Below are positions 12,428 to 28,953 of a DNA stretch of 64,000 nucleotides, piece by piece (position 1 is the stretch's first letter; each line of letters starts with the position of its first letter). The stretch is from Marinobacter qingdaonensis (GTDB lineage Bacteria; Pseudomonadota; Gammaproteobacteria; Pseudomonadales; Oleiphilaceae): assembly GCF_034555935.1 (NCBI RefSeq), contig NZ_JAYDCJ010000003.1, positions 2,356,001 to 2,420,000 of the forward strand, in the 5' to 3' direction. The notes below the pieces were generated by a model. The model had not been told where the DNA came from. It did no database searches and was given only the letters and a program-made list of their open reading frames with translations. Made by a program: the position numbers and the translations under genes.

Positions 12428-12549
12428 GTTTGCTCCGTCTTCGTTGAATTATTGTTGTCGTGAGACGTTTATCCGTTCGCCCCTGATCCGGGACGTACTG
12501 CACGGAACCGCGCGGCGCCAGCCGCAGCAGGGGGCTCTGCGCCCTGCGC

Positions 12550-13629
12550 TCAGAACTTGTCGGCCAACCGTTGCAGCAAGGCTGCCCGACGTTCCGATTC
12601 CGGGTCGACCGTCGGGGTGTCCGTCAGGTCATTCAGGTCCGGGGCGGAAAAATCCAGGCCCTCTTCCGGTCCGAAGCCATAGTGAGTTCGCTGCCCGGGC
12701 CTGGCGGGCAGTTGCCGGATTTGCAGGTGCCGGAGACTCAGGGGGCCGTTCACGGGCTGATTGGCCAGCACCGTGCCATGGGCCTTCAGCTCAATGGTGC
12801 CGGCGCCCGAGTCCAGACGCTGTTCAGCCTGGAGCAGGGCAATCGGCCGGGAACCCGCGAAAAGCTGGGCCGAGAGGGCGAAAACACCGGCCTGGTCCGG
12901 CGCGAAGCGAACCGGGATCACCAGGTTGTTCTCGGCCAGGTAGGCATCGTCCAGCCCTTCGAACTCACCCAGGTAAGGCTCGATGGTGAGGGTGGAGGCA
13001 TGGCGCACCGGCCGGCCATCGACCCGGGCTTCGACGATCAGCCGGTATTCTCCGGGGGGCTCGTCGGAGCCAAGTTCGCCCTCAAAAAAGGTGCCGCTGG
13101 TGCGCTCCAATCGAGTGGAGGCGATGGCATCCCGGTTCTCGGACTGTTCCAGGGTGACGGCCAGGGTATCGGCCACCACCTGGGGCCCCTCGAGCGAGGC
13201 AGCAATGAGAATCGGCTCACCCCGGGTAAAGCGGAATTTTTCCAGGGTGACGGTGAAGTGCCCCTGATTGCCGAGTGGCAGGCGCACCGGGGTGTAACGG
13301 TTGGTTTGGTAGCCCTCGGCCTGAGCGGGGGACAGGGGCGTGGACCAGGGTGGGTATTGGGCATTATCGCGGTATTGGTCGGCAACCCGGGCGAACATGA
13401 AGCCCAGCGCGCTGTCGCCCGGCTCCATGGCCCGAGCCGGCCCTGGCGAAGCGGCCGATGGCGAGGTGAGGTTCGCAACCGGGGTTGCCGCAGGGCCGTT
13501 AAACAACGCCGCTGGCAGCGAGTCCCGCAGCCAGTGGAAGCTTGTCTGGTTGTCGGTGGCGAGCCAGTAGCCGGTAGCCAGCGAGCCCGTCAACGCGACC
13601 AACAGAAGCAGAAGGGCTTTGCCGGCCAT
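12550..13629 (-). CDS. Unrecognised membrane-anchored periplasmic protein upstream of the lipase
   Basis: I do not recognise this 359-residue protein. One N-terminal membrane helix (about residues 4-25) is followed by a Pro/Ala/Ser-rich linker. Two beta-rich regions follow that look like immunoglobulin-type sandwiches (about 120-225 and 230-330), then a charged tail ending in ALLQRLADKF. The plan of anchor, flexible linker and extended body recalls lipase-specific foldases (LimK/Lif), and it immediately precedes a secreted lipase in the same orientation. The foldase motif RxxFDY is absent, however, so a lipase helper role is inferred from position only. It could equally be a surface or cell-envelope adhesive protein. 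Confidence 0.6.
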   Translation of the reverse strand: MAGKALLLLLVALTGSLATGYWLATDNQTSFHWLRDSLPAALFNGPAATPVANLTSPSAASPGPARAMEPGDSALGFMFARVADQYRDNAQYPPWSTPLSPAQAEGYQTNRYTPVRLPLGNQGHFTVTLEKFRFTRGEPILIAASLEGPQVVADTLAVTLEQSENRDAIASTRLERTSGTFFEGELGSDEPPGEYRLIVEARVDGRPVRHASTLTIEPYLGEFEGLDDAYLAENNLVIPVRFAPDQAGVFALSAQLFAGSRPIALLQAEQRLDSGAGTIELKAHGTVLANQPVNGPLSLRHLQIRQLPARPGQRTHYGFGPEEGLDFSAPDLNDLTDTPTVDPESERRAALLQRLADKF

Positions 13630-13757
13630 CCGTCAGTTCCTTGTTGTTGTTATGATCAACAAACATACAGAGAGCGAATGGATGACGGCAAAGAAATGGG
13701 CCGGTTATGTAACAGAATGTGTCCGGATTGTGCGGTGGCTCACAAAATACCGGAGGT

Positions 13758-14375
13758 TCAGAACCAGCCGGAATCCTGATTGGCCTCGAAGCCAAAGCGC
13801 AGTCGAACCTCGTCGCCGACCAGTGCCGGCTCCAGCCCATAGGTCATACCCCAGTCGCTGCGCCGCAAGCTGGTCTCGGCACTGATGCCCAGGGTGAAAT
13901 CCTCATGGCCGATCGGATATTCCGCTGACTTGTTGAGGGTCACATCCAGGGTCACCGGGTTGGTTTGACCCAGCATGGTCAGATCACCGGTGACCTTGCC
14001 GGTGTTCTCGCCGCTGGGCTCGAAGTCGGTCAGGTCGAACCGGATTTCCGGGTATTTCTTGCTGTGGAGAAAGTCGTCGCTGCGCAGGTGTTCGTCCCGC
14101 TTCTTGTGGTTGGTGAAGATGCTGTCGCTCTGAAACACCAGCGTGCCGGATTGCAGTTCGCCGGTGGCGTCGTCATAGACGAACTGCCCCTCCACCTCGC
14201 GGAACATGCCAATCACCGGGGCGTAGCCAATGTGCATGATTTCAAACGACATGGAAAAGTGTTCGGAATCCACCTCGAAAGTCGCGGGCTCTGCGAACGC
14301 CGCGCCGGACAGGCAGAGGGCCGAGGCGACCAGGGCGGAACGGGCGGAGTGTTCAATCATTGTGCCGGGGTTCAT
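13758..14375 (-). CDS. YceI-family periplasmic lipid-binding protein
   Basis: This is a secreted lipocalin-like protein of 205 residues. The signal peptide ends FAEP (about residue 28), and the YceI domain starts at FEVDSEHFSMSFEIMHIGYAPVIGMFREVEGQF. The segments HLRSDDFLHSKKYPEIRF and GDLTMLGQTNPVTLDVTLN are diagnostic. Family members bind polyisoprenoids or amphiphilic lipids in the periplasm. The ATG at 14375 has AGGAGG eight bases upstream. It overlaps the 3' end of the CDP-alcohol phosphatidyltransferase gene by 23 bases, so the two are probably coupled. Confidence 0.88.
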   Translation of the reverse strand: MNPGTMIEHSARSALVASALCLSGAAFAEPATFEVDSEHFSMSFEIMHIGYAPVIGMFREVEGQFVYDDATGELQSGTLVFQSDSIFTNHKKRDEHLRSDDFLHSKKYPEIRFDLTDFEPSGENTGKVTGDLTMLGQTNPVTLDVTLNKSAEYPIGHEDFTLGISAETSLRRSDWGMTYGLEPALVGDEVRLRFGFEANQDSGWF

Positions 14376-15111
14376 GGGAAGACCTCCTGTGGTAGAGCCA
14401 GCAAATGTCCAGAGCGAAGGACCACACCAGCAGGACCAGGGCCGTGGCCAGGGTGATGCTGGCAAAAGCAGGGGATACCGGGGGCAGCAGCGCCACCATC
14501 AGGGTGACAAGCTGCCAGACGCAGACCGTCTTGCGCCGGAAACTGTCGGGCAGGGGCGCTGTCAGCCAGGGTAAGAACAGGCCAGCAGTAACAAAAGCAT
14601 AGCGCATCAACCCCAGGGCGAGTACCCAGGCTCCGGCCCGATCCAGGGCCATCACCGCAAGACAAAGGCCCAACATGAGCGCTGCGTCCAGCTCCATGTC
14701 GAAGCGGGCGCCAAAGCTGCTCTGGCAGCCCAGGGCCCGGGCCAGGGCGCCATCGACGCCGTCCAACACCAGAGCCAACAGGGCAATGGCTGCATAAATC
14801 CACAACTGACCGACGGCCGGTTCAGCCCCGGAGCCGGGAAGAAAGGGGGCAGAAGACACCAACAGGATCACCAGCGCAGCCCGGGCCAGTGTCGTCCGGT
14901 TGGCGGGCCCAAAATCCTGGTCGGCGGGCCAGTGGCGCAGCACGCACCAGGCCAGCAGGGCAAAGAGAGTCGCGGCAATCACCAGGAAACCGGCGGGCAA
15001 ACGCCAGGTCAGGGCCGCCGCCAGACATACCGTGGTGGTCAGAACCAGGGCCCAGGCCAGATCCAGGCGAAGCGACAGCGCCGGCGCTGTCACCCGTTCG
15101 GGCGAATCCAT
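14353..15111 (-). CDS. CDP-alcohol phosphatidyltransferase family membrane protein
   Basis: This integral membrane enzyme has the CDP-alcohol phosphotransferase motif: DGVDGALARALG, then FGARFDMELD (D-x2-D-G-x2-A-R-x8-G-x3-D-x3-D), at about residues 120-145. Enzymes of this family move a phospho-alcohol between a CDP-activated lipid or alcohol and an acceptor. Six to seven hydrophobic segments are visible. The ATG at 15111 has GGAG seven bases upstream and is preferred over in-frame starts near 15168, which lack one. It is divergent from the MDR gene and overlaps yceI. The actual substrates are unknown; context suggests lipid linkage of a product of the neighbouring cluster. Confidence 0.82.
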   Translation of the reverse strand: MDSPERVTAPALSLRLDLAWALVLTTTVCLAAALTWRLPAGFLVIAATLFALLAWCVLRHWPADQDFGPANRTTLARAALVILLVSSAPFLPGSGAEPAVGQLWIYAAIALLALVLDGVDGALARALGCQSSFGARFDMELDAALMLGLCLAVMALDRAGAWVLALGLMRYAFVTAGLFLPWLTAPLPDSFRRKTVCVWQLVTLMVALLPPVSPAFASITLATALVLLVWSFALDICWLYHRRSSHEPRHND

Positions 15112-15252
15112 AGCTGCACTCCAGCGTATAGGTGTTGATGGGAGGCCTTGGGTGAAGGCCTCCATCACTGACTATAGTTGTCAGAACTTACCGGTGCCTA
15201 CGACCCAACCGGGCATTCGGACCGACCAGAACACAATGACAGGGAGCGGCTT

Positions 15253-16254
15253 TTGCAGTCTCAAGACACCCAGGACATCACCACCAGTCTGGCCTGGTGG
15301 GTCACCGGTCCAGGCCAGGGCGCGCTGCAGCCGGCGCCCATCGATGCGGCCGAGGGCCTATTGCCAACCTCCGCCGTGACCGTGGAAACCCGGTTCTCCG
15401 GCATCAGCCGAGGCACCGAAAGCCTGGTGTTCCATGGCCGGGTGCCGGCCAGTGAGCATGGACGCATGCGGGCGCCGTTTCAGCAGGGGGAGTTTCCCTA
15501 TCCGGTCAAATACGGTTACGCCAATGTCGGGCAAGTGACGGATGGGCCGGCGGACCTGCTCGGACGAACGGTGTTCTGCCTGTTTCCTCACCAACAACGG
15601 TACCGGGTACCGCAACAGGCGGTGTACCCGATCCCCGACGGGGTACCGGCCGAGCGCGCGGTTTTGGCCGCAAACATGGAAACGGCGGTGAACGGACTCT
15701 GGGACGCCTCCCCGGGCGTGGGGGACCGGGTACTGGTGGTGGGGCTCGGCGTCGTCGGCTTGCTGGTCGGCTGGCTGGCGGCCCAGATTCCCGGCACGCG
15801 TGTCACCGTACTCGACACCAACCCGGCCCGCCGAACCCAGGCCCAGGCACTGGGGCTGGACTTCACCGAGGGACCCGGCCGGGACGACTACGACCTGGTG
15901 TTTCACACCAGCGGCCAGCCCGCCGGCCTGACCACGGCCCTGGCCAGTGCCGGGCCCGAGGCCCGGATTGTCGAGATGAGCTGGTACGGCAATGCCGCGG
16001 TGGCGGCGCCACTGGGCGAGGGCTTCCACGCCCGACGGCTGACCCTCAGGTCCAGTCAGGTGGGGCAGATTCCCACTGACCGTCGGCCGCGCTGGGACTA
16101 TCGTCGGCGCATGGCGCTGGCTCTGGAATTGCTCCAGGATGATCGGCTCGACCAGTTGATCACCGGAGAAAGCCGGTTTGCCGAGTTGGCACAGGTGATG
16201 CCGACACTCCTGGCCGGCACAGCGGATGTTTTGTGTCACCGAATCGTGTACTGA
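15253..16254 (+). CDS. Zinc-less medium-chain dehydrogenase/reductase, BchC-like
   Basis: This MDR-fold oxidoreductase starts with a GroES-like domain (SGISRGTESLVFHGRVP, FPYPVKYGYANVGQV). A Rossmann domain follows with VLVVGLGVVGLLVGWLAA at about residues 158-175 and the acidic strand end VTVLDTN. Catalytic and structural zinc cysteines of classical alcohol dehydrogenases are missing; only two Cys occur. The RGTE segment recalls BchC-type dehydrogenases. The frame has no ATG near the N-terminus; I choose TTG at 15253 because GGGAG lies six bases upstream. It is followed at 31 bases by the pterin-synthase-like gene and probably oxidises or reduces an intermediate of that cluster. Confidence 0.75.
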   Translation: MQSQDTQDITTSLAWWVTGPGQGALQPAPIDAAEGLLPTSAVTVETRFSGISRGTESLVFHGRVPASEHGRMRAPFQQGEFPYPVKYGYANVGQVTDGPADLLGRTVFCLFPHQQRYRVPQQAVYPIPDGVPAERAVLAANMETAVNGLWDASPGVGDRVLVVGLGVVGLLVGWLAAQIPGTRVTVLDTNPARRTQAQALGLDFTEGPGRDDYDLVFHTSGQPAGLTTALASAGPEARIVEMSWYGNAAVAAPLGEGFHARRLTLRSSQVGQIPTDRRPRWDYRRRMALALELLQDDRLDQLITGESRFAELAQVMPTLLAGTADVLCHRIVY

Positions 16255-16285
16255 TTTTTCTCTTTGGCTGTATGGAGACACCCGT

Positions 16286-16684
16286 ATGTTCAGTTTGACC
16301 GTCCGCGACCACATGATGATCGCCCACAGTTTCCGGGGCGAGGTGTTTGGCCCGGCGCAACAGGTCCACGGCGCCACCTACCTGGTGGATGTGACCTTTG
16401 AGCGCCCCGAGTTGGACGCCGATAACCTGGTGGTCGATATCGGCCTGGCGTCGTCGGTGCTCAAGGAAGTACTGGGTGAGTTCAACATGCAGAATCTGGA
16501 CGCGCTCGACTCGGTTCAAGGCCAGAACACCACCACCGAATTCATGGCCAAAGTGGTGTTCGACCGGATGGCGGTGGCCATCGGCGCCGGTCGCCTGGGC
16601 ACCTCGGCAAAAGGGATCGGTAGTCTGAAAGTCACCCTGTCGGAGTCGCACATTGCCTGGGCCAGTTTTCATGGTGAGCTCTGA
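16286..16684 (+). CDS. Degenerate 6-pyruvoyl-tetrahydropterin synthase / QueD (COG0720) family protein
   Basis: This 132-residue T-fold protein aligns with QueD/PTPS enzymes over its whole length. AHSF holds His14 and VHGATY holds His28. VVDIG corresponds to the family V-x-D-F strand, NTTTEFMA to the PTSE helix and SESHIAW to the ETxxxxA pterin-anchoring strand (Glu120). It departs at key places: the catalytic Cys four residues before HGH is Ala24, the second His of HGH is Ala30, and the Asp-His of LDH is not conserved. It probably binds a pterin or pyrimidine but does not do standard QueD or PTPS chemistry. GGAG lies eight bases before the ATG. Its stop is overlapped by the next gene. Confidence 0.8.
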   Translation: MFSLTVRDHMMIAHSFRGEVFGPAQQVHGATYLVDVTFERPELDADNLVVDIGLASSVLKEVLGEFNMQNLDALDSVQGQNTTTEFMAKVVFDRMAVAIGAGRLGTSAKGIGSLKVTLSESHIAWASFHGEL

Positions 16685-18593
16685 CCCGACCCTGCGCGTT
16701 ATTGTTCCGGGCGACCCGGAGCAGAACACCGGAGGTTACCGGTACGTTCGAAAACTGGTCGAGGCGCTCGAACAGCTCGGGACCTGCACCGAGACCCTGG
16801 GCCTCGACGGGCGGTTTCCCCGCCCCGATGCGCTGGCTCGGCGGGAGATGGATGTGGCCCTCAGCCGCTGCCCCGACGGCGCGGTGGCGATACTCGACGG
16901 CCTGGCCATGGGCGCCATGCCCGACATCCTGGAACAGCACGCCCATCGGCTGAGACTGCTGGCTCTGGTCCATCATCCCCTGGCCGATGAAACCGGCCTG
17001 CACGAGTCGGACCGACACTGGTTTTTTCAGCAGGAGCGCCGGGCCCTGGCGGTGGTGTCCCAGGTGGTGACCACCAGCGCTTTTACCGCCAGACGTCTAG
17101 CGGCGTTCGGCGTGCCGGCTGAGCGCATCCACACGGCGTTGCCGGGCGTGGCAGTGCACCTTGCTGGCGCGGCCGTACAGGAACGCCCCAGGGCCGCTCC
17201 TCCCGAACTCCTGTGCGTCGGCCACCCCTCGCCACGCAAAGCCCAGCATCAGCTTATTGAGGCGCTGCAGGCGCTTCAGGCGCTGCCCTGGCACTGCACC
17301 CTGGTGGGGTCCCTGGATCGGGATCGCGGCTACAGTCAGCAGATGGTGGCGCAGATCCAGCAGGCGGGGCTCAACGGGCGGGTGACGCTGACCGGCGAGG
17401 TCGGGGACGGTCAGCTGGCCGATCTCTACCGGCGCTCCGATCTGTTCGTGTTTCCCTCCCTGTATGAGGGCTATGGCATGGTGATCGATGAGGCCCGCAG
17501 CGCCGGTCTGCCGGTGATCAGCTCCGATGGCGGGGCCCTGGCCGATACCGCCGTCGGGGTCGGTGTCCGTCAGTTCCCGGCCGGTGATGTCGGGGCGCTG
17601 ACCGACGCCCTGCGGGCTTGGCTTGCCGACCCCGCCGAGCTTGCCGCCCAGACCGACTTGGTCCGCAGCCATCGCCCGAGGGCCGGGAGTTGGGGGCAGG
17701 CCGCCCGGGTGGTGCTAAAGGCCGCCAGACGCGCGGCAACGGGGGCGGGCACCCTGTTCAACGACGACTGGCTGGCGCTGCGGGAATCCGCCGATCATCG
17801 GGCCAGGTCGGCCACGCTGACCCGTACCCTGAACACCTGGCTGGCCCAGGATTGGACCCAGCCGGAGGCGCCCACGCCGGAGCAGACCGTGGGTGTGGTC
17901 GATCTGGGCACCGGGCGCGGTTCCAATGCACTGTTTCTGGCACCCCGACTCGAGGTGCCGCAGCACTGGTGCCTGATCGATCAGGATGCCCGCTTGCTGT
18001 CGGTCGCCCGGGGCCGCTTGCAACAATCGGGTACGGAGTGCGAGGCAATCGAGGCCAGACTGACCAGTCAGTCCCTGGCGGAGTGCATTCCCCCTCGGAC
18101 CCGGTTGGTGACCGCCTCCGCCCTCATTGATCTGGTGTCCCAAGATTGGTTGGAGGCGCTCGCCACCGCGGTCGCCGACAGGGGCGCGGCGGTTCTGATC
18201 GTGCTCAGCTACACCGGGTATTTCCGCCTGGCCCCGGCTCGGCGGGACGACGACCGACTTCGGGAGCTGGTGAACCAGCACCAGAAGGGCGACAAGGGCA
18301 CCGGGCAGGCGCTGGGGCCGCAGGCGCCGGAGGCTCTGGCGTCGCGCATGGCGTCGGCGGGCTATGCCGTGAGCGTGGCCGAGAGCACATGGCGCCTCGA
18401 TGCTCGGGATGGCGATCTGATGTCTCAGTTGATGGAGGGCTGGGTCAGCGCGGCCGGTGAAATCGCGCCCGACGAGCAGGACTGGCTTTCGGACTGGCTG
18501 AGCGACCGCAAGGCCCAGCTGGCGGCCGGGATTCTGTCGGTGGAGGTCGGGCACCGGGATGTCCTGGCGCTGCCGCCGGACCAGGGGGCATGA
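16671..18593 (+). CDS. Fusion of GT4 glycosyltransferase and class I SAM methyltransferase
   Basis: This 640-residue protein combines two enzymes. Residues 1 to about 365 form a GT-B fold of family GT4. The first sugar-nucleotide helix region is PSLYEGYGMVIDEARSAGLP, with the EX7E motif near residue 265. A methyltransferase follows, with SAM motif I VVDLGTGRGSN near residue 408 and LIDQDA as the acidic loop. The start lies 14 bases inside the pterin-synthase-like gene, and its stop overlaps the next ATG (ATGA), showing tight coupling. It likely glycosylates and methylates the product of this cluster. The acceptor, sugar and methylation site are not known. Confidence 0.82.
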   Translation: MVSSDPTLRVIVPGDPEQNTGGYRYVRKLVEALEQLGTCTETLGLDGRFPRPDALARREMDVALSRCPDGAVAILDGLAMGAMPDILEQHAHRLRLLALVHHPLADETGLHESDRHWFFQQERRALAVVSQVVTTSAFTARRLAAFGVPAERIHTALPGVAVHLAGAAVQERPRAAPPELLCVGHPSPRKAQHQLIEALQALQALPWHCTLVGSLDRDRGYSQQMVAQIQQAGLNGRVTLTGEVGDGQLADLYRRSDLFVFPSLYEGYGMVIDEARSAGLPVISSDGGALADTAVGVGVRQFPAGDVGALTDALRAWLADPAELAAQTDLVRSHRPRAGSWGQAARVVLKAARRAATGAGTLFNDDWLALRESADHRARSATLTRTLNTWLAQDWTQPEAPTPEQTVGVVDLGTGRGSNALFLAPRLEVPQHWCLIDQDARLLSVARGRLQQSGTECEAIEARLTSQSLAECIPPRTRLVTASALIDLVSQDWLEALATAVADRGAAVLIVLSYTGYFRLAPARRDDDRLRELVNQHQKGDKGTGQALGPQAPEALASRMASAGYAVSVAESTWRLDARDGDLMSQLMEGWVSAAGEIAPDEQDWLSDWLSDRKAQLAAGILSVEVGHRDVLALPPDQGA

Positions 18594-19528
18594 TGCCGAC
18601 TCCGGTTGCTTGGCGCTGGCTCTTCACCCTGGGACTGCTGGGCAGTGTGGTCGTGGTCCTGGACCTCGACGAGCTCTGGCAGCAGCTCAGGCGCCTGCCG
18701 CCGTCGCTGCTGCTGCCGGCTTTCCTGCTCACCGGCGTGCAAGTGGCCTTGTCGGCCTGGCGCTGGCGCTTCACCGCGCAGCGCCTTGGCTTGCGCCTGC
18801 CGTATGGCCGGGCGGTGCGCGAATACTACCTGGCCAGCTTCCTCAATCAGGTGCTCCCGGGTGGTGTGGTGGGGGATGTTGGCCGGGCCTGGCGGCACAG
18901 TCAGCATACCGATCACAAACGCGGGGCGGTGCACGCCGTGGTGATTGAGCGGCTGTCGGGTCAGCTGGCTCTGTTGCTGGTTGTGGTTGCCGCGCTGTGG
19001 TGGCTGGCGCCGGCCAGCGACCTGTTTCCAGGCGAGCCAGCGCTATGGCTGCTGCTGATTTTAGTCGGTGTGATGGTGGCTGCCTGGCTGATACGGCGAA
19101 GCCGCCGGGCCGGGCACTATCTCGCAAACCTCCATCGCGATCTGTCTCGCACCCTGTTCGGCTGGCGGGTGTTCGCGATTCAACTCGGCACCTCTTTGCT
19201 GGTGTTGGCCAGCTACCTGGCCCTGTTCCTGGTGCTTGCCCAGCAAGCGGGCTATCTGGCATCCGGCGCCCCATGGCTACTGGTCGCTGCCTTGTGCAGC
19301 CTGTTGCTGCTGAGCATGGTGATACCGGTCACCGTGGCCGGCTGGGGGGTGCGTGAGGGCGCGGCGGCGGTGTTGTGGCCGTTTGCGGGATTGCCGGCGG
19401 AGCAGGGCGTGGCCCTCAGTGTGGGGTACGGCATCCTGGTGCTGGTGTCCTCCACGCCTGGCCTGGTGGTTCTGGTGTGGGGCCAGGCCAAGCCGGGATT
19501 GGCACAGGCTACGGAACGCGGAGGTTAG
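18590..19528 (+). CDS. Lysylphosphatidylglycerol-synthase-type (AglD/YbhN-like) transmembrane protein
   Basis: This 312-residue polytopic membrane protein has about eight hydrophobic segments and the family core NQVLPGGVVGDVGRAWR at about residues 85-100. SMVIPVTVAGWGVREGAA lies near residue 240. Members of this family (PF03706) include the flippase domain of MprF and AglD-like proteins, and are thought to move or bind lipid-linked compounds. There is no cytoplasmic aminoacyl-transferase domain, so this is not a lysyl-PG synthase. The ATG overlaps the previous stop codon in ATGA. It suggests that the cluster product is lipid-linked or translocated. Confidence 0.82.
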   Translation: MMPTPVAWRWLFTLGLLGSVVVVLDLDELWQQLRRLPPSLLLPAFLLTGVQVALSAWRWRFTAQRLGLRLPYGRAVREYYLASFLNQVLPGGVVGDVGRAWRHSQHTDHKRGAVHAVVIERLSGQLALLLVVVAALWWLAPASDLFPGEPALWLLLILVGVMVAAWLIRRSRRAGHYLANLHRDLSRTLFGWRVFAIQLGTSLLVLASYLALFLVLAQQAGYLASGAPWLLVAALCSLLLLSMVIPVTVAGWGVREGAAAVLWPFAGLPAEQGVALSVGYGILVLVSSTPGLVVLVWGQAKPGLAQATERGG

Positions 19529-19535
19529 GCAGACG

Positions 19536-20399
19536 TCAGGAAAATTCCAGATCGAACAGCATGTCCGATCCCAGGTTGATCAGCTGGGACTTGGGACGCA
19601 GGGCCTCGTCCAACCCGTCGATCTCCGGCAGGGAAAACGCCGGCCGACCGCTGCCGATGATCATGGGTGCCACCATCACGTGCAGTCGATCCAGCAGACC
19701 GGCATTCAGAAACGACGACACCGTCAGGCCCCCGCCTTCCACGAACACCTTCCTCAAGCCGAAATCGGCCAGCACCTGCAGGATCAGCCGGGGATCGGTC
19801 GGCTCGGTTTGGTCCGAACCGCCGAGGCAGGCGACTTCGGTGACCTGGCCACGTTCGGTGATCGACGCCTTGCCGCGGTAGGCGCCGGCGACCAGCCGCA
19901 GGGTCGGGGCTTCGTCGTCGGTAAACAGGTGGTGACTGTCCGGTACCCGGCGGTGCCGGTCAATGACCACGCGCACGGGGTTGGAGCCACTGGTGCGCCG
20001 GACCGTGAGCCTCGGGTTGTCGGTGGCGGCGGTCCCGGCACCCACCACAACGGCGTCCGAGACCGCGCGAATCCGATGCAGGTGCAGCAGGCCGTCGTCG
20101 CCATTGATGAACCGTGACCGGCCAGTCACCGTGGCAATCCGGCCGTCCAGGCTCTGGCCCAGTTGGCCGATCACCCTGGCACCGGCCTCCGTCCGAACCG
20201 GACGACACAGGGGCAGGAAGGTGGAGAGCAGGTCCCGGGCCTGGGGCGTTGCCGGGTGCAGCAAATGCCAGGCGCCCGCGCCGTTCAGACGCACCGCGGG
20301 CTGATCGGTGTCCGGCAATGCCAGTGTCACGTTGCTGCGGTCCAATGCAGTCAGCACCAACTGCCAGGCTGCCTCGCAGTCCATCGGTAGAGCGGTCAT
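19536..20399 (-). CDS. Stand-alone RibD-type (pyrimidine reductase family) reductase
   Basis: The C-terminal 210 residues match the RibD C-terminal reductase domain, which reduces the ribosyl group of a GTP-derived diaminopyrimidine with NADPH. Segments are GQSLDGRIAT, LHLHRIRAVSDAVVVGAGTAATDNPRL, RVVIDRHRRVP and VFVEGGGLTVSSFL. There is no deaminase domain; about 75 unassigned residues form the N-terminus. It converges on the AglD-like gene with seven bases between stop codons, so it is part of the same locus. A riboflavin role is possible, but stand-alone copies beside a pterin-synthase homologue point to another GTP- or pyrimidine-derived product. Confidence 0.82.
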   Translation of the reverse strand: MTALPMDCEAAWQLVLTALDRSNVTLALPDTDQPAVRLNGAGAWHLLHPATPQARDLLSTFLPLCRPVRTEAGARVIGQLGQSLDGRIATVTGRSRFINGDDGLLHLHRIRAVSDAVVVGAGTAATDNPRLTVRRTSGSNPVRVVIDRHRRVPDSHHLFTDDEAPTLRLVAGAYRGKASITERGQVTEVACLGGSDQTEPTDPRLILQVLADFGLRKVFVEGGGLTVSSFLNAGLLDRLHVMVAPMIIGSGRPAFSLPEIDGLDEALRPKSQLINLGSDMLFDLEFS

Positions 20400-20557
20400 A
20401 ACAGTCCCGTACGCTTGCCGTTGATTTCAGTATAGGCAGATTGTCCGAAAAGCTATAGGTACGTTACATTTCCAGTTTGATTCACTTTACTGGTAAGTTC
20501 CGGTCAACGCGGATTCCGGATTTCCTGGCGTCCCGACACAGGGTAGAGGCAACCAGC

Positions 20558-20971
20558 ATGCGGTACCTGCAAACGTTCAATCGTCGGCTGCGCCAGATTC
20601 GCGAGCACGGCCGACTGTCACGCTGGGATGTCGCCCAGATATGCGGGGTGGAAGAGGCTCAGGTGAAAAGCTGGGAAGCCACCGACGTCCGTCAACGGGG
20701 GTATCCGGGCATTTCCGAGCTGCTGGATTTCTGCATTCGTACCGAGACGCCGCTGGAAGACCTGATCGATCTCGAGGAGCAGGGCGATGGGCAACTGGAA
20801 CTGCCAGGCCTGGCGTTCAGCAACAGTGACGACCTGACGGTGGCGCTGAAAGAGTTGGAGCAGGAAATCAACCGAGTTCAGTTGTCCGATGAAGAAACCG
20901 AACTGCTGCGCCGGTTCCGCAACGCGTCCGCGGAAAACCGGCGCATGATCCTCCAGATTCTGGGAGGGTGA
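20558..20971 (+). CDS. XRE-type helix-turn-helix regulator
   Basis: This 137-residue protein has an N-terminal helix-turn-helix (RLRQIREHGRLSRWDVAQICGVEEAQVKSWE, about residues 8-40) and an acidic, helical C-terminal tail (LKELEQEINRVQLSDEETELLRRFRN). The ATG at 20558 is chosen because GAGG lies eight bases upstream and the domain begins shortly after; the in-frame extension upstream is not protein-like. It ends 15 bases from the convergent galU stop. The regulated genes are not evident. Confidence 0.75.
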   Translation: MRYLQTFNRRLRQIREHGRLSRWDVAQICGVEEAQVKSWEATDVRQRGYPGISELLDFCIRTETPLEDLIDLEEQGDGQLELPGLAFSNSDDLTVALKELEQEINRVQLSDEETELLRRFRNASAENRRMILQILGG

Positions 20972-20986
20972 GCCACAGGGCCCGGC

Positions 20987-21823
20987 TCAGTTACCTTTCT
21001 TGTAGATGTTCTCGTACACGTAGTTGGTGGCATCGACAAAGCCATCGATGCTGCCGCAATCGAAACGACGCCCCTTGAACTGGTAGGCCAGTACACAGCC
21101 GTTCTTGGCCTGCTCCAGAAGCGCGTCGGTGATCTGGACCTCGCCATTCTTGCCGGCCGGTGTGCGTTCGATGATGTCGAAGATGTCCGGGGTCAGGATG
21201 TAACGGCCAATGATCGCCAGGTTACTGGGCGCGTCTTCGGGGGCCGGCTTCTCCACCATGTCGGTAATGCGATAGAGCCCGTCCTTCATGGACTCGCCGG
21301 CAATCACCCCGTACTTGTGGGTTTCATTCTCCGGCACTTCTTCAATGGCCACGATCGAGCAGCGGAACTGGTTGTACAGTTTCACCATCTGCGCCAATAC
21401 TCCGTCGTCGCCGTCCGGGCCCAGGCAGAAGTCATCCGCCAGCACCACCGCAAACGGGTTGTCGCCGACCAGGTTGCGGCCGGTGAGGATGGCGTGTCCC
21501 AGGCCTTTCATTTCGTTCTGACGGGTAAACGCGAAGGTGTTGTTGTCGATCAGGTCGCGAATGGAGGCGAGCAGGTCTTCCTTGCCGGAGCCGGCAATCT
21601 GGTGCTCCAGTTCGTAGCTGATGTCGAAGTGGTCCTCGATGGCGCGCTTGCCCCGACCGGTGACAAAACCGAACTCGTGAATGCCTGCTTCAGCCGCTTC
21701 CTCGACGCCGTATTGCACCAGCGGCTTGTTGACGATGGGAAGAATCTCTTTCGGCATGGCCTTGGTGGCCGGCAGAAAGCGGGTTCCGTACCCGGCAACG
21801 GGGAACAGGCATTTTTTGATCAT
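20987..21823 (-). CDS. galU: UTP-glucose-1-phosphate uridylyltransferase
   Basis: GalU makes UDP-glucose from UTP and glucose-1-phosphate for polysaccharides and periplasmic glucans. The 278-residue protein begins with the nucleotidyltransferase signature LFPVAGYGTRFLPATKAMPKE. VLADDFCLGPD holds a metal-binding Asp, and the GVIAGES, VEKPAPEDAPSNLAIIGRYIL and QFKGRRFDCGSIDG segments are characteristic. The length is normal. AAGGA precedes the ATG. It lies upstream of the opg genes, whose glucosyltransferase uses UDP-glucose. Confidence 0.96.
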   Translation of the reverse strand: MIKKCLFPVAGYGTRFLPATKAMPKEILPIVNKPLVQYGVEEAAEAGIHEFGFVTGRGKRAIEDHFDISYELEHQIAGSGKEDLLASIRDLIDNNTFAFTRQNEMKGLGHAILTGRNLVGDNPFAVVLADDFCLGPDGDDGVLAQMVKLYNQFRCSIVAIEEVPENETHKYGVIAGESMKDGLYRITDMVEKPAPEDAPSNLAIIGRYILTPDIFDIIERTPAGKNGEVQITDALLEQAKNGCVLAYQFKGRRFDCGSIDGFVDATNYVYENIYKKGN

Positions 21824-23300: not shown

Positions 23301-23399
23301 CCCTGCTTTTCCGAGCCTCTGGCTTGGCAGTTTCCAGCCTGCTTAACTATGTTGGTAGGTGGCGCGGCGGGCGCTTGTGCAGATGGGGGCGGGATAGTG

Positions 23400-24938
23400 A
23401 TGGATACGGCACGCTATCGACGTTGGGGGTGTTGGTCGCTCCTGATGCTCCTGCCTTGTCTGGCCATGGGCTTCGGCCTCGACGATGTCGCCGAACGAGC
23501 CAGGGTGCTGGCCCAATCCGACTTTGAGGCGCCCGAGCCAGTGCCCGATTTTTTGCGCGAGCTGACCCCGGACCAGCACCGGGCGATCCGCTTCGACCCT
23601 GCCAGGAGCCTCTGGCACGACGACCGTTCCCGCTTTCAGGTCATGATGATCCCGCCCGGCAGCTATTACAGCCATGCGGTCAGGCTCAACGTGGTGGACG
23701 GCGAGCGCCAGGACCCGATCCCCTTCCGCCGGGATGATTTCGCCTACCCGGACGACGAACTCAGGAACCGCATTCCCGCCGACCTCGGCTACGCCGGCTT
23801 CACCCTGACCGATACCAAGCCTGCCAGCGGTGAACGGGCTGCGGTCCTGATGTTTGGTGGTGCCAGCTATTTTCGGGGCGCCGGCCGCGACCAGGAATTC
23901 GGGCTTTCCGGGCGTGGCGTTGCCATTGATACCGGGCTTGCCTCCGGCGAGGAATTCCCGACGTTCACCGAGTTCTGGCTGGAGCGTCCCGGCCCGGATG
24001 CCGAGGCCATCACCATCTACGCCTTGCTGGAAGGAGAGTCGATCACCGGTGCCTACCGGTTTGCGCTGCGGCCGGGCGAGACCAGCGCGGTGACCGTGAC
24101 CGCTCGCCTTTTCCTGCGTGACGCGGTCGAGCAGCTTGGGCTCGCGCCCCTGACGTCCATGTTCTTCTACGCCGAGAATGCCGCCAAGCCGATGGGGCAA
24201 TGGCGGCCGGAAGTCCACGATTCCGACGGCTTGCTGATCCATGACCGGGGATCCGGAGAGTGGCTGTGGCGGCCGCTGGTCAATCCCGGGAAGCTGCAGC
24301 TCAGCTACCACCAGGTAGCGGAACTCGGCGGTTTTGGCCTGATGCAGCGGGACCGGGTGTTCCAGTCCTACGAAGACCCGGAGGCCCGCTACGACCGGCG
24401 GCCCAGCGCCTGGGTCGAGCCGGAGGGGGACTGGCGCGCCGGGCATGTGGTCCTGGTGGCGCTGCCCACGGAGGCGGAGACCAACGACAACATCGTTGCT
24501 TTCTGGGTGTCGGAGCAGCGAGCGGAACCGGATCAGTTGAGGGAGCTGAGTTATCGGGTGAGCTTTGGCCCGCCGTCGATCGCAGGGCAGCGGCTTGGCC
24601 GGGCCGTTCCGACGTTTTTTGGCCACAGCAACGGCGGGGGCGAGGAGGCCAACGCGTTGCGCTTTGTCGTTGATTTCGAAGGTGAGGAGCTGGCGGCCCT
24701 GGCCCCCGACGCGCCGGTGGTAAGCACCGTTGTGGGGGGCGAAGGCACCGAGGTGCTGGAACATTTCGTCCAGTTTATCGAGCCCAAGGCAATGTGGCGG
24801 CTGTCGATCCTGGCCCGGCCGGCGCCCGGGAAGATCCTCGCTCTGCGCGCCTTCCTGAGCCTGGAGGGCAAGCCGGTCAGCGAGACCTGGATCTACGAAT
24901 ACGGCGCGGGCAACGGGAGTAGGCGCCAGTCTGACTGA
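23400..24938 (+). CDS. opgG: Periplasmic glucan biosynthesis protein OpgG
   Basis: OpgG (MdoG) acts in the periplasm on osmoregulated periplasmic glucans (OPGs) made by OpgH, and is needed for their backbone structure. A Sec signal (LLMLLPCLAMG) precedes the MdoG domain, which includes DFLRELTPDQHRAIRFDP, FRGAGRDQEFGLSGRG and RPEVHDSDGLLIHDRGSGEWLWRPLVNP. Its 512 residues match E. coli OpgG (511). The ATG at 23400 gives a standard signal peptide; an ATG at 23349 would add 17 unlikely residues. It heads the opgG-orf-opgH-opgD operon. Confidence 0.9.
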   Translation: MDTARYRRWGCWSLLMLLPCLAMGFGLDDVAERARVLAQSDFEAPEPVPDFLRELTPDQHRAIRFDPARSLWHDDRSRFQVMMIPPGSYYSHAVRLNVVDGERQDPIPFRRDDFAYPDDELRNRIPADLGYAGFTLTDTKPASGERAAVLMFGGASYFRGAGRDQEFGLSGRGVAIDTGLASGEEFPTFTEFWLERPGPDAEAITIYALLEGESITGAYRFALRPGETSAVTVTARLFLRDAVEQLGLAPLTSMFFYAENAAKPMGQWRPEVHDSDGLLIHDRGSGEWLWRPLVNPGKLQLSYHQVAELGGFGLMQRDRVFQSYEDPEARYDRRPSAWVEPEGDWRAGHVVLVALPTEAETNDNIVAFWVSEQRAEPDQLRELSYRVSFGPPSIAGQRLGRAVPTFFGHSNGGGEEANALRFVVDFEGEELAALAPDAPVVSTVVGGEGTEVLEHFVQFIEPKAMWRLSILARPAPGKILALRAFLSLEGKPVSETWIYEYGAGNGSRRQSD

Positions 24939-24962
24939 CCGGTCTGGAGGGGATCGCAGTCC

Positions 24963-25244
24963 ATGAACGAGCTCGACCTTCACGATGTTTTCAACCGGGT
25001 GCATTTGTACCTGCTCGAGTCCGGGGTGGTGATGACCCCGGACCAGTGCGCCCGTGTACTGCAGTTGCTGCAGAGCGTGGTGGCCGATGTCCAGCGCCCG
25101 GGGAACACCGCCACCGCCCTGGAACTGGCGATCGATGCCTTGCCCGGGGTCTTCGAGCTGCCGGCGTTGGCGGTACCCCAGATCAGCCCACCGCTGCAGC
25201 GGGGCAGCATCGGCTATCATGTGCCCGAGGCCCGCCGTGGCTAA
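24963..25244 (+). CDS. Small unknown protein between opgG and opgH
   Basis: This 93-residue acidic protein (start MNELDLHDVFNRVHLYLLESG) has no signal peptide or membrane segment and two probable helices. I do not recognise it. It lies 24 bases after opgG, and its stop overlaps the likely GTG start of opgH by eight bases, so it is translated as part of the operon. A role as an OpgH partner or regulator is inferred from position alone. It might be the split-off cytoplasmic N-terminal region seen in longer OpgH proteins. Confidence 0.6.
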   Translation: MNELDLHDVFNRVHLYLLESGVVMTPDQCARVLQLLQSVVADVQRPGNTATALELAIDALPGVFELPALAVPQISPPLQRGSIGYHVPEARRG

Positions 25245-27348
25245 CCGCACCGGAGCGGAGTGGCACCGGGCCGCCCATTGGCGTCGCTGGCTGTTCGTCA
25301 GTCTGGTGCTGAGCCAGTCCGCGATTGCCAGTTACTGCCTGGTCTGGGTGTTGCCCTACCACGGTGGCACCCTGACCGAGCGGGTGATCCTGGCGTTGTT
25401 CGCCGTGTTGTACACCTGGATCGCCGTCGGGTTCTGGATCGGGACCCTGGGGTTTGTCATCCGTCGGTTCGGCGGCGATCGGCTCTCGCTTTTGCGGCGG
25501 CACCCGGCGGCCGAACTGGCGCACACGTCGCTGGCGCCGACCGCAGTCATTCTGCCGATTTACCATGAGCCGGTGCGCTGGACCCTGAACGGCTTGAAGG
25601 CAGTTTACCAGGATCTGGCCGCCGAGGGTGGCCTGGAGTTTTTCCAGTTCTATGTCCTGTCCGACAGCCGGTCGGCCGACGTCTGGCTGGAGGAACAGCA
25701 GGTCTGGTGCGAATTGGTCCGCGATCTGAAGGCCGAGGGGCGACTGTTTTACCGGCGCCGGCCGGTCAATCTCAATTTCAAGAGTGGCAATGTGGCGGAT
25801 TTCCTGCGCCGCTGGGGCCGGCGCCATCGCTATGTGGTGGTGCTGGATGCCGACAGCCTGCTCAGCGGCCAAACCCTGTGTCAGATGGTCAGGCTGATGG
25901 AGCGTGAACCCCGGGTCGGGATCCTGCAGACCAACCCCAGTATCATCAACGCCCAGTCCCTGTTTGCCCGGGTCCAGCAGTTCGCTAACCGCTTTTACTC
26001 ACCCCTGTTCGCGACCGGTTTGGCCGCGGTGCAGTTGGGGGACGCGGCGTTCTGGGGGCACAACGCCATTCTGCGGGTGCAACCGTTCATGGCTCACTGC
26101 GGTCTGAGGAAACTGCCCGGCCGTGGCCTGTTTGGTGGACCGATACTCAGTCATGACTTTGTCGAGGCGGCGTTTATGGGCCGAGCCGGCTTCGAAGTCT
26201 GGCTGGAGCCGGGTCTGTCCGGCAGTTACGAGGAGTCGCCGCCGACCCTGGCGGACGAACTGGTGCGTGATCACCGCTGGGCCAAGGGGAACCTGCAGCA
26301 CTTGTGGGTGATGCTGCGCGAGCCCGGCCTCAGGTTTGCCCATCGGATGGCCTTCCTGAACGGCATCATGGCGTACGTGGCCTCACCCCTGTGGCTGCTG
26401 TTCCTGATGGCGGTTACCGTGGCGGCGGCGCAGATGACCCTGGCGCCAATCGATTATTTTCCCGAGGGCCATCAGGGCCTGTTTCCCTTATGGCCGGAGT
26501 GGCGCCCGGAATGGGCGCTGACCCTGGCCCTGAGCACGGTGCTGTTGTTGTTTCTGCCCAAGTTCCTGGCACTGGTGGATGCGGTCCTGCAGGACCGGAC
26601 CGCCGAGTTTGGCGGGGGAGTGCGCCTGTTTCAGGGTGTACTGCTCGAAATTCTGGTGTCGATCCTGCTGGCGCCGGTGCGCATGTTAGCCCACAGCCGG
26701 TTCGTATTCGCCGCGTTGTCGAACGTCTCTCTGCGGTGGGCCGGACAGAACCGAACGGAAGAAATGAGCTGGCGCGAAGGCTTGGCCTCGCAATGGCCGG
26801 CGGTGGTGGTCGGGGCGACCTGGTCCTGGTTTGCCTGGCACCTGGATACCGCGTTTTTCCTGTGGTCACTGCCCGTGGCGCTGCCTTTGTTGCTGTCGGC
26901 CCAGACCGCCGTGCTGCTCAGCCGCCGCGCCCTGGGGGTGGGGCTGTTGAACCGCCGGTTGCTGCTGATCCCCGAGGAAGTTTCGCCGCCCCCGGTTCTG
27001 GAAAAGGCCAGGGCGGTACGATCGGTGGAACCCGAGCACTCCGGTCTGACCCCGTTTCAGCAGGCCATTCTTCTCCCACAGGTGAATCGCCTGCACCAGG
27101 CCTTTGCCCGGGTGCATTCGACGCTGGAGCGGGAGCGGCATTGGTCGACGGATGTCGAGCGCTGCCTGAAACATGGCCCGGCGCTCCTGACCGATGCCAA
27201 GCTGGCTCGAATCGCCCGGGACCGTTGGGCGTTGGCGTACCTGCACCGGCAGTCGTGGAAGGCGGACCCGGAGTCCTATTGGGGCCGGTGCATCCGCAAT
27301 TTGCTGGCTCAGCGACTCAATGATTCCAGGCAGCAGGCGGACGCCTGA
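25237..27348 (+). CDS. opgH: Glucans biosynthesis glucosyltransferase OpgH
   Basis: OpgH (MdoH) is an inner-membrane GT2 enzyme that polymerises and exports beta-1,2-glucan from UDP-glucose. Two N-terminal membrane helices precede the catalytic domain (ILPIYHEP, VVLDADSLL, and DHRWAKGN as the (Q/R)xxRW-type motif). Several C-terminal helices follow. I choose GTG at 25237 because GAGG lies six bases upstream and it overlaps the preceding small gene; an ATG at 25219 is the alternative. The product of about 703 residues is shorter than E. coli OpgH (about 847), mainly lacking the long cytoplasmic N-terminus. Confidence 0.9.
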   Translation: MANRTGAEWHRAAHWRRWLFVSLVLSQSAIASYCLVWVLPYHGGTLTERVILALFAVLYTWIAVGFWIGTLGFVIRRFGGDRLSLLRRHPAAELAHTSLAPTAVILPIYHEPVRWTLNGLKAVYQDLAAEGGLEFFQFYVLSDSRSADVWLEEQQVWCELVRDLKAEGRLFYRRRPVNLNFKSGNVADFLRRWGRRHRYVVVLDADSLLSGQTLCQMVRLMEREPRVGILQTNPSIINAQSLFARVQQFANRFYSPLFATGLAAVQLGDAAFWGHNAILRVQPFMAHCGLRKLPGRGLFGGPILSHDFVEAAFMGRAGFEVWLEPGLSGSYEESPPTLADELVRDHRWAKGNLQHLWVMLREPGLRFAHRMAFLNGIMAYVASPLWLLFLMAVTVAAAQMTLAPIDYFPEGHQGLFPLWPEWRPEWALTLALSTVLLLFLPKFLALVDAVLQDRTAEFGGGVRLFQGVLLEILVSILLAPVRMLAHSRFVFAALSNVSLRWAGQNRTEEMSWREGLASQWPAVVVGATWSWFAWHLDTAFFLWSLPVALPLLLSAQTAVLLSRRALGVGLLNRRLLLIPEEVSPPPVLEKARAVRSVEPEHSGLTPFQQAILLPQVNRLHQAFARVHSTLERERHWSTDVERCLKHGPALLTDAKLARIARDRWALAYLHRQSWKADPESYWGRCIRNLLAQRLNDSRQQADA

Positions 27349-27366
27349 TGTGGCAGGAGGACAGGG

Positions 27367-28953
27367 ATGGATAGACGCACACTGATCAAGGCACTGGCGC
27401 TCGGTGCTGGCGGGGTTTGGGCGCTGAAGATGGGTGCCGTTTCGGCGGCCCAAACAGATGGCCCGGCGGCGTCCCAAGGGCAAGCGTTCAGCCTTGATTG
27501 GCTGAAGGGCCAGGCGCGCTACCTGGCCCGGCAACCCTACGTCGCCCCGGGCGACACGCTGCCCGATGCCTTGCACGGACTCTCTTGGGACGAGTATCAG
27601 GGCATTCGCTTTCGGCCGGAGCGGGCGCTCTGGGCAGACCAGGACCTGGCGTTCCAGATCCAGCTGTTTCACCTGGGTTTGTATTTCCAGTCGCCGGTAC
27701 GCATCCACGAAGTGATTAATGGCCTGGCGCACCCGGTGGCCTATGACGCCGACATGTTTCAGCATGAGGGCAATCAGGCCCTGGGTGAGCTTCCGTCGGA
27801 TCTGGGGTTCGCCGGATTTCGCATCCATTACCACACCAACTTTCAGTTGGACCTGGCCGCCTTTCTTGGCGCCAGCTATTTTCGGGCGGTCGGCAAGGCC
27901 ATGCAGTTTGGGCTCTCAGCCCGCGGTCTAGCGGTCAATACAGCCGCGCCCGATGGCGAAGAGTTTCCCCGGTTTACCGCGTTCTGGCTGGAGCGTCCGG
28001 AACCCGGTGCCCACCAGCTTCGGGTCTGGGCCATGCTGGACTCGCCCAGTGTCGCCGGCGCCTATGCCTTCCTGCTTGAGCCCGGGCCGGTCTTTAGCAT
28101 GGACGTCGAGGTCGCCCTGTATCCACGCACCGAGCTGGACCGGATCGGGTTCGCACCACTTACCAGCATGTACCAGGTGGGCGAAAACAGCCGTCGGATA
28201 GCTTACGACTGGCGCCCGGAAATCCACGACTCGGACGGACTGCTGATGCACACGGGGGCGGGGCAATGGCTCTGGCGGCCCTTGGCCAATCCGGCGGCGC
28301 TTCGGTACAACAGTTTCCTGGACCGGGACCCGAAAGGCTTCGGCCTGTTGCAAAGAGACCGGTCGTTTGCGAACTACCAGGACGACGGCGTTTTCTACGA
28401 CCGCCGGCCAAGCCTCTGGATCGAGCCTCGCAGTGGTTGGGGTGCCGGGCGTGTGGAGCTGGTGGAGATTCCCACGGTCGATGAGACCTTTGACAATATC
28501 GTCGCCTACTGGAATCCGGACCAGATCCTGGTGCCGAACAGGGAATACCTGTTCGCCTACAGAATGAGCTGGGGTGAGGTGGAGCCCGAAGTGCAGTCCG
28601 GCCTGGCCAGCGTCCGGGCGACACGCACCGGGTTAGGGGGTGTTGTGGGGCAGCCGCGGGAGTATTTTTCCTGGCGGTTCGTGATCGATTTTCAGGGTGG
28701 CCTGTTAACAATGCTGGCCGAGGATGCCGAGGTGGTCCCCGACATCAAGGCCAGTCGCGGCCGGGTGGAGATTACCTCGGCGCGGCCGCTGGCGTCGATT
28801 CGGGGCTATCGGGCGATGTTCGACCTGGTGCCAGACGAGTCGGAAAGCCCCATAGATCTGTCACTGGTGCTCAGGCGGGGGACCCAGATTCTGACCGAGA
28901 CCTGGGTGTACCAGTACACCCCGCCGCCTCCGGCCGACCGGAAGTTGGTGTGA
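27367..28953 (+). CDS. opgD: Tat-exported periplasmic glucan protein OpgD
   Basis: OpgD is a paralogue of OpgG that adjusts linear OPG backbones in the periplasm. A twin-arginine leader (MDRRTLIKALALGAGG) distinguishes it from the Sec-exported OpgG upstream. The MdoG-type domain includes LSWDEYQGIRFRPERALW, FRAVGKAMQFGLSARGLAV and RPEIHDSDGLLMHTGAGQWLWRPLANP. Its 528 residues are normal. It follows opgH by 18 bases and ends the operon. Confidence 0.92.
   Translation: MDRRTLIKALALGAGGVWALKMGAVSAAQTDGPAASQGQAFSLDWLKGQARYLARQPYVAPGDTLPDALHGLSWDEYQGIRFRPERALWADQDLAFQIQLFHLGLYFQSPVRIHEVINGLAHPVAYDADMFQHEGNQALGELPSDLGFAGFRIHYHTNFQLDLAAFLGASYFRAVGKAMQFGLSARGLAVNTAAPDGEEFPRFTAFWLERPEPGAHQLRVWAMLDSPSVAGAYAFLLEPGPVFSMDVEVALYPRTELDRIGFAPLTSMYQVGENSRRIAYDWRPEIHDSDGLLMHTGAGQWLWRPLANPAALRYNSFLDRDPKGFGLLQRDRSFANYQDDGVFYDRRPSLWIEPRSGWGAGRVELVEIPTVDETFDNIVAYWNPDQILVPNREYLFAYRMSWGEVEPEVQSGLASVRATRTGLGGVVGQPREYFSWRFVIDFQGGLLTMLAEDAEVVPDIKASRGRVEITSARPLASIRGYRAMFDLVPDESESPIDLSLVLRRGTQILTETWVYQYTPPPPADRKLV

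Follow-up and report, generated by a model that had tools for sequence, protein, structure and literature searches.

A conserved seven-gene cluster around a PTPS-like protein of the SCO6650 kind: a candidate pathway from GTP to a glycosylated, methylated product

Introduction

What might be made by a divergent relative of 6-pyruvoyl-tetrahydropterin synthase (PTPS), a riboflavin-type reductase, a glycosyltransferase-methyltransferase and several lipid-handling proteins that are encoded side by side? The question is raised by a locus of Marinobacter qingdaonensis (contig NZ_JAYDCJ010000003.1, positions 2,356,001 to 2,420,000; this whole stretch of 64,000 nucleotides is called the window), in which seven genes occupy positions 13758-20399. 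The source genome (G000) comprises about 4 Mb in 5 contigs. An original prediction, made from the DNA letters, had the locus produce a glycosylated, methylated and possibly lipid-anchored molecule from a GTP-derived pteridine or pyrimidine. We find that the cluster is real, widespread and conserved, and its seven genes almost certainly constitute one functional unit. The product is probably derived from GTP by way of 2,5-diamino-6-ribosylamino-4(3H)-pyrimidinone 5'-phosphate (DARoPP). With moderate confidence we propose that the unit starts from GTP, passes through a ribityl-diaminopyrimidine and ends in a product that is glycosylated, methylated and perhaps linked to a lipid.

No description of the whole cluster or its product was recognised in the open full-text literature (preprints excluded, few subscription papers). 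To our knowledge, only fragments of the cluster have been described so far, from Streptomyces, and the SCO6650 family has a solved structure without an assigned function.

Results

The seven genes are kept together in distant bacteria

Profile searches of the translated open reading frames (ORFs) bore out the gene list of the original prediction, both in positions and in families. The yceI and phosphatidyltransferase genes lie on the minus strand, four genes follow on the plus strand, and the RibD_C gene is convergent with these:

13758..14375, minus strand: YceI-family protein, an accessory member (PF04264, 141.6 bits; N-terminal signal-like segment judged by eye)
14353..15111 (alternative start 15165), minus strand: CDP-alcohol phosphatidyltransferase (PF01066, 59.3 bits)
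15253..16254 (mechanical ORF from 15178), plus strand: zinc-less oxidoreductase of the medium-chain dehydrogenase/reductase (MDR) family (sub-threshold PF00107 and PF01262)
16286..16684, plus strand: PTPS-like protein of the SCO6650 kind (PF01242, 75.3 bits)
16671..18593, plus strand: GT4 glycosyltransferase fused in one frame to an S-adenosylmethionine (SAM) methyltransferase (PF00534, 93 bits; PF13649 Methyltransf_25, 27.5 bits, cut-off 27)
18590..19528, plus strand: PF03706 (LPG synthase TM / AglD-like) membrane protein (140.1 bits)
19536..20399, minus strand, convergent: stand-alone RibD_C reductase, no deaminase domain (PF01872, 129.3 bits)

The neighbourhood of the PTPS-like gene was scored at 134 loci: 15 from congeners, 16 from a class sample (L064-L079), 80 from named genome contigs, 15 from a phylum sample (L190-L204) and 8 from plasmids. 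The fetched stretches were 3-20 kb long, mostly 18-20 kb, with contig ends cutting several of them (e.g. L027, L074, L075, L150), and a neighbour was scored as present when it matched its hidden Markov model (HMM) with at least 60 bits. The MDR and GT4 genes each accompany the PTPS-like gene at 130 of the 134 loci, the methyltransferase at 125, RibD_C at 116, the phosphatidyltransferase at 104, the PF03706 gene at 95 and yceI at 53. A seed-based BLAST count over 111 of the loci agrees (MDR 108, GT4 108, RibD_C 97, phosphatidyltransferase 96, PF03706 89). At 15 control loci around ordinary QueD/PTPS genes of the same class sample the phosphatidyltransferase, PF03706, YceI and a creatininase-family protein were each found 0 times at this threshold, MDR twice, GT4 and the methyltransferase once each, RibD_C 5 times and GTP cyclohydrolase II (GCHII) 7 times. 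The MDR, GT4 and methyltransferase matches of the controls are confined to L252 and L258, which hold a distant cousin of the cluster (see below). In three genomes of 1.0-1.1 Mb (L076, L077, L079) eight genes retain their order at only 20-43% identity. Chance juxtaposition of the seven genes is rejected by this conservation of neighbourhood and order, and the co-occurrence by which the original prediction could be checked is thus found in distant bacteria. The same three genomes had been considered as RuBisCO-bearing symbionts; this was dropped, RuBisCO_large_N being matched in 0 of 3.

The PTPS-like relatives are 40-79% identical, with ordinary QueD/PTPS proteins clearly apart at 20-30%. The subfamily was present, own genome included, in 17 of 369 genomes of the class sample (at least 40% identity) and 27 of 398 of the phylum sample (at least 160 bits). 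Scanning the genomes of 84,980 species gave at least 576 confirmed places that encode the PTPS-like marker, of which the best 80 were kept. The loci come from Pseudomonadota, Actinomycetota and metagenome-assembled genomes (MAGs) labelled Gemmatimonadetes or Acidobacteria, some MAG labels being doubtful. Among the carriers are Halomonas, Vreelandella, Salinicola, Chromohalobacter, Marinobacter, Wenzhouxiangella, Nisaea and Variovorax; further MAGs bear the label Thauera. Furthermore, 21 plasmid records matched, including those of Streptomyces, Microbacterium, Arthrobacter, Rhizobium, Methylosinus and Thiodictyon, and 8 of the 21 were inspected. A Microbacterium plasmid (L246) carries the phosphatidyltransferase, MDR, PTPS-like, GT4, methyltransferase, PF03706 and RibD genes in one run, with no yceI; a Streptomyces locus (L248) has all cluster genes except yceI and RibD_C. 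The marker had no match in a phage collection, and transport by phages was rejected on this ground. Finally, a 5 kb contig labelled as a Natrialbaceae archaeon MAG (L108) holds a copy 70% identical to the query; this is probably a misbinned bacterial contig.

Joint gain and loss within the genus

Within the genus the gene set appears and vanishes together. The PTPS-like gene occurs in 16 of 25 same-genus genomes (own included), and a RibD_C paralogue (120-142 bits) accompanies it in all but one of them (15 of 16), against 0 of the 9 others. The exception (G008) retains a PTPS-like remnant only (L033:9049-9447), the rest of the cluster being gone, and its motifs have changed from FGPA to FRQA, from HGAT to HEAT and from ESH to ESP. 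As judged from the aligned sequences, residues that are invariant or nearly so elsewhere drift in this copy once the partner genes are lost. Of the nine congeners that lack the cluster, five were examined at this site; none of the cluster genes was found there in any of the five, and the neighbouring XRE and GalU genes were present in all. In congener L275 the left and right neighbours are 245 bp apart, which represents an empty site.

The PTPS-like protein has lost the catalytic residues of its family

Searched against solved chains, the alignment of PTPS-like proteins matched 3d7j, 'uncharacterized protein SCO6650', over 129 residues with 200.7 bits (E 8e-59). The next solved chain reached 34.0 bits, and true PTPS chains scored at most 34 bits. 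The third zinc ligand is replaced by Ala: where 2g64, 3i2b and 1b66 read HGH in the alignment, the cluster proteins read HGA, and the motif is HGAT in 133 of 135 members (the window protein and those of the 134 loci), HGTT in L076 and HEAT in the remnant of L033. These 135 ORFs include three pairs with identical last 120 residues, two of which (L068/L132 and L148/L190) are apparently one contig met twice. Compared with 2g64, FGKC has become FGPA (catalytic Cys to Ala) and VDHRNLD has become LNLKNLD; the Asp-His pair is mostly Asn followed by Met, Phe, Tyr or Leu. By pattern, no Cys directly precedes the HGA/HEA motif in any of the 135 members. Near the C-terminus E120, which we take to be the residue that anchors the substrate or pterin, is invariant in alignments of 19 and of 21 members. 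With the zinc-site and catalytic residues replaced and this Glu kept, the PTPS-like protein probably binds a pterin-like ring, and PTPS chemistry is not expected. Accordingly, PTPS or QueD function was rejected. The 'pterin-synthase homologue' of the original prediction holds as to family (PF01242) and fails, by sequence, as to a working pterin synthase.

Reductase, cyclohydrolase and amidohydrolase suggest a link to GTP

The RibD_C protein of the window stays below the cut-offs of TIGR01508 (115.5 bits, cut-off 186.45) and TIGR00227 (131.7 bits, cut-off 150.15). Its best solved chains are 6p8c, a DARoPP reductase, and 2azn. The Cys zinc motif of the deaminase was found in 0 of 32 cluster RibD_C proteins versus 6 of 7 canonical RibD proteins. 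In a tree the 32 chosen cluster proteins fall on one side of a branch and the 7 canonical ones apart (98/92 support), although this tree has long branches and its join of fusion and canonical proteins may be false. Elsewhere in the own genome, on contig C5, a full-length RibD of 398 aa is encoded near a GCHII gene, and a housekeeping riboflavin paralogue was thus rejected as an identity for the deaminase-less cluster protein.

A linked GTP cyclohydrolase, for which the original prediction had suggested a search, was indeed found: GCHII is linked at 64 of the 134 loci, and a creatininase-family amidohydrolase at 58. The further claim that no riboflavin genes accompany the locus is correct for the genus (linked GCHII at 0 of 15 congener loci) and does not extend to the cluster as a whole. 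The catalytic motif of RibB is absent by pattern from all 65 cluster GCHII ORFs, and the zinc Cys motif is present by pattern in 27 of 28 listed cluster GCHII proteins. The residue scored as Tyr or Met, which presumably is the product-switch position, is Tyr in 62, Met in 1, Ile in 1 and unmatched in 1 of the 65. The linked enzymes are thus not formylamino-type (Met) variants throughout; the GCHII of Streptomyces fungicidicus (L248) has Met at the switch, and a creatininase gene adjoins it. The creatininase-family match (PF02633, 203.6 bits for L156) indicates family membership only. A member of that family, BrbF (SMc02977) of Sinorhizobium, deformylates the formylamino intermediate to DARoPP by assay (PMC9478397).

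In the cousin clusters, L252 (7504-11305) and L258 (8764-12413), GCHII is fused to RibD_C, beside an MDR gene and a divergent PTPS-family gene whose protein reads RHSHHY in place of HGAT; L252 has in addition a GT4 gene and L258 a methyltransferase gene. GTP was placed at the start of the pathway mainly because cyclohydrolase, formamidase and deaminase-less reductase would catalyse three consecutive steps on one substrate. Deaminase, lumazine synthase and riboflavin synthase were not among the recurrent neighbour families identified (no model search was made for the two synthases).

MDR, GT4-methyltransferase and gene boundaries

The MDR protein of the window had no ADH_N match at E 0.001, and its best NCBIfam match was BchC with 56.1 bits (cut-off 291). 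At the positions where a zinc MDR enzyme would be expected to have Cys and His, all 13 aligned proteins have Ser77 and Tyr114 (ligand positions assigned by eye from family patterns). An AlphaFold2 model has the MDR fold with a mean pLDDT of 87.8. In the GT4 domain two Glu residues eight apart (E266, E274) are invariant in 13 aligned proteins, and its AlphaFold model resembles general retaining glycosyltransferases (MshA, sucrose-phosphate synthase, PimA). The two models confirmed the folds and indicated no substrate. GT4 and methyltransferase are separate genes at most loci of the class sample.

The gene starts are probably tighter than those of the mechanical ORFs: TTG 15253 for MDR, ATG 16671 for GT4 and ATG 15111 or 15165 for the phosphatidyltransferase. 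The MDR start was placed at TTG 15253 because, in the model of the longer frame, pLDDT is below 50 for the majority of residues 1-32. With the revised starts the PTPS-like and GT4 genes overlap by 14 nt and the GT4-methyltransferase and PF03706 genes by 4 nt, in keeping with the overlapping or closely spaced genes noted originally. No Rfam match reached the gathering threshold within 12000-28000; promoter and terminator scans gave numbers about as expected by chance, and one site resembling a promoter lies between the divergent genes.

The membrane half

The phosphatidyltransferase of the window has an intact DGVDGALAR..G...D...D motif, and of 103 cluster ORFs 101 match the CDP-alcohol motif DGxxARx8-9Gx3Dx3D by pattern. 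The PF03706 protein matched the MprF flippase/synthetase model with 42.7 bits, below cut-off. Cytochrome b561 is linked at 7 of the 15 phylum-sample loci; like YceI, the FkbM methyltransferase, the Sulfatase-fold membrane protein and OpgGH, it is an extra of particular lineages. The lipid-handling proteins of the original prediction are partly core: the phosphatidyltransferase and PF03706 genes are present at most loci, YceI, the least conserved of the seven, at fewer than half, and in the phylum sample the phosphatidyltransferase is rare (see below).

Another membrane protein, whose match to Sulfatase is weak to moderate, recurs near the cluster (L201:4407-6056, L158:3474-5096, L156:14730-16346, L244:3516-5141); it is perhaps a periplasmic phospho-transferase.

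Surroundings of the cluster

Downstream of the cluster, as context outside the claimed unit, lies the following:

23349..28953, plus strand: OpgG, OpgH and a second OpgG-like gene (PF04349 on the first OpgG; HMM matches at 23349, 25054 and 27367)

From 36000 onward the G+C content of the window is reduced, at 0.50-0.56 compared with about 0.63 before, and it remains so up to 64000, where the window ends. This part, possibly an island, has glycosyltransferase-like matches at 46349, 56953 and 59415.

Discussion

Proposed pathway

A GTP-derived, glycosylated and methylated product, as originally predicted, is the best reading, and the circumstantial evidence for it is strong. GCHII would open GTP towards DARoPP, supplied by housekeeping copies in this organism and by a cluster-linked paralogue in many relatives. 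Where present, the creatininase-family amidohydrolase would remove the formyl group of the formylamino intermediate. The stand-alone RibD_C protein would then reduce the ribose to ribitol with no prior deamination, like an archaeal-type reductase, and the PTPS-like protein would bind the resulting diaminopyrimidine or pteridine. Together with the zinc-less MDR protein it may carry out ring or side-chain chemistry other than the PTPS reaction. GT4 would glycosylate the molecule and the methyltransferase would methylate it, the phosphatidyltransferase and PF03706 protein may serve in lipid linkage and transfer across the membrane, and YceI could be a periplasmic carrier in some lineages. A lipid-linked product is a possibility that the protein families suggest and that we rate somewhat below even.

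Several points weigh against this pathway. Every reaction, their order, the identity of the substrates and the lipid link are our inference. The scoring HMMs were trained on part of the same 134 loci, and as the genome-contig loci represent the best 80 among at least 576 places, the counts lean to near relatives. Two Streptomyces plasmids (L241, L242) hold the PTPS-like gene alone within 10 kb, Arthrobacter L247 has MDR, PTPS-like and GT4 genes only, and RibD_C was undetected in L248. Among the controls, L253, L256 and L262 hold both RibD_C and GCHII, and L261 and L263 hold GCHII without a 60-bit RibD_C; in the former three the two are encoded separately at a distance of several kb from the PTPS gene, with deaminase motifs in the RibD frame. 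At the phylum-sample loci the phosphatidyltransferase and PF03706 genes were each found at 1 of 15 and YceI at 0 of 15, and therefore the membrane half is not universal. In the genus, creatininase exceeded its cut-off in 0 of 25 genomes, so that the deformylation step would be dispensable there, and 24 of 25 genomes have two copies of GCHII, with or without the cluster, which makes the link to GTP indirect in these organisms.

A more specific version, which we regard as doubtful, would have the cluster make a redox cofactor or pigment of a new class that is held in the membrane. This would be a glycosylated, methylated ribityl-diaminopyrimidine or 8-ribitylpterin; the CDP-alcohol phosphatidyltransferase would join its ribityl phosphate to a phospholipid, the PF03706 protein would flip it, and in the periplasm YceI or, in other lineages, a cytochrome b561 would serve it. 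If true, this would add a third line of GTP-ring cofactors beside flavins and folate-type pterins. The general pathway, if true, would give the SCO6650 family a pathway, would account for a deaminase-less RibD_C in bacteria that also have a normal RibD, and would imply a glycosylated, perhaps lipid-linked GTP-derived metabolite that is testable in culturable bacteria. The marker protein is encoded at at least 576 places among the genomes of 84,980 species, yet no description of the cluster or its product was recognised in the open literature.

Alternative explanations

The best surviving alternative, which we consider unlikely, is a surface glycan or glycolipid locus. In it GT4, the methyltransferases, the phosphatidyltransferase, the PF03706 protein and the neighbouring OpgGH would synthesise or modify a periplasmic glucan or a lipid; the PTPS-like and RibD_C proteins would have been recruited for other purposes, for example sugar reduction, with no GTP-derived ring. 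It draws on OpgH near the cluster at 8 of the 15 phylum-sample and 31 of the 80 genome-contig loci, OpgC in L137, an FkbM methyltransferase at 32 and a Sulfatase-fold membrane protein at 15 of the 80, and on the likeness of the GT4 model to general retaining glycosyltransferases. However, such a locus would not be expected to carry linked GCHII and creatininase genes or to have a cousin with a GCHII-RibD_C fusion. Moreover, OpgG persists in the cluster-negative congeners L275 and L278, by which OpgGH was rejected as an obligate part, and no OpgG or OpgH lies near the cluster in Microbacterium L246 or Streptomyces L248.

GTP is also the starting material of vitamin B2, and the cluster might provide an auxiliary supply of riboflavin or folate, with RibD_C as a reserve reductase for riboflavin synthesis and the PTPS-like protein as an enzyme of pterin salvage. 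RibD_C and GCHII are indeed riboflavin-pathway families, and the best solved match of the former is a DARoPP reductase. This explanation is nevertheless improbable, given the separate full-length RibD near GCHII in the own genome, the lack of the deaminase motif in 32 of 32 cluster RibD_C proteins and their position apart from canonical RibD in the tree, the loss of the PTPS catalytic residues, and the lumazine and riboflavin synthases not being among the recurrent neighbours identified (no model search).

Least probable is a real MDR-PTPS-GT4-methyltransferase-RibD_C module beside which the phosphatidyltransferase/YceI pair and PF03706 are unrelated lipid genes, placed nearby by chance or regulation: the low count of YceI (53 of 134) and the single phosphatidyltransferase and PF03706 matches in the phylum sample suit it, but these two genes are kept at 104 and 95 of the 134 loci, Actinomycetota L246 and L248 included, against 0 of 15 controls, and all seven genes are absent at the locus in the five inspected cluster-negative congeners.

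Comparison with known systems

The proposed GTP-to-product pathway can be set beside four known systems. The pterin glycosides of cyanobacteria (cyanopterin, biopterin glucoside) likewise involve a PTPS-family protein, a glycosyltransferase and a methyl group. Their synthesis begins with GTP cyclohydrolase I and a functional PTPS, whereas the present cluster has a PTPS-like protein with replaced residues and a linked cyclohydrolase of type II. Such glycosides are mentioned in PMC13259868.

The early riboflavin pathway in its archaeal order, with BrbF added, has cyclohydrolase, formamidase and reductase types in series, which fits the families linked here. The archaeal pathway differs in using GTP cyclohydrolase III and not II (PMC9478397), and the present cluster differs in the PTPS-like, MDR, GT4, methyltransferase and membrane genes that follow. 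QueD and PTPS share the Pfam family of the PTPS-like protein, but identity to them is 20-30%, HGH has become HGA and the catalytic Cys has become Ala.

The closest known relative is SCO6650 of Streptomyces coelicolor (PDB 3d7j), by far the strongest solved match of the PTPS-like alignment. Spoonamore and Bandarian (2006 and 2008) reportedly found that its structure lacks zinc and the catalytic triad and keeps the pterin-binding residues; they are also said to have found that the GCHII SCO6655 yields a formylamino product through a Tyr-to-Met switch. Compared with what is reported for SCO6650 and SCO6655, what is additional is a Gram-negative cluster, a GCHII with Tyr at the switch (62 of 65), and the GT4-methyltransferase and GCHII-RibD_C fusions.

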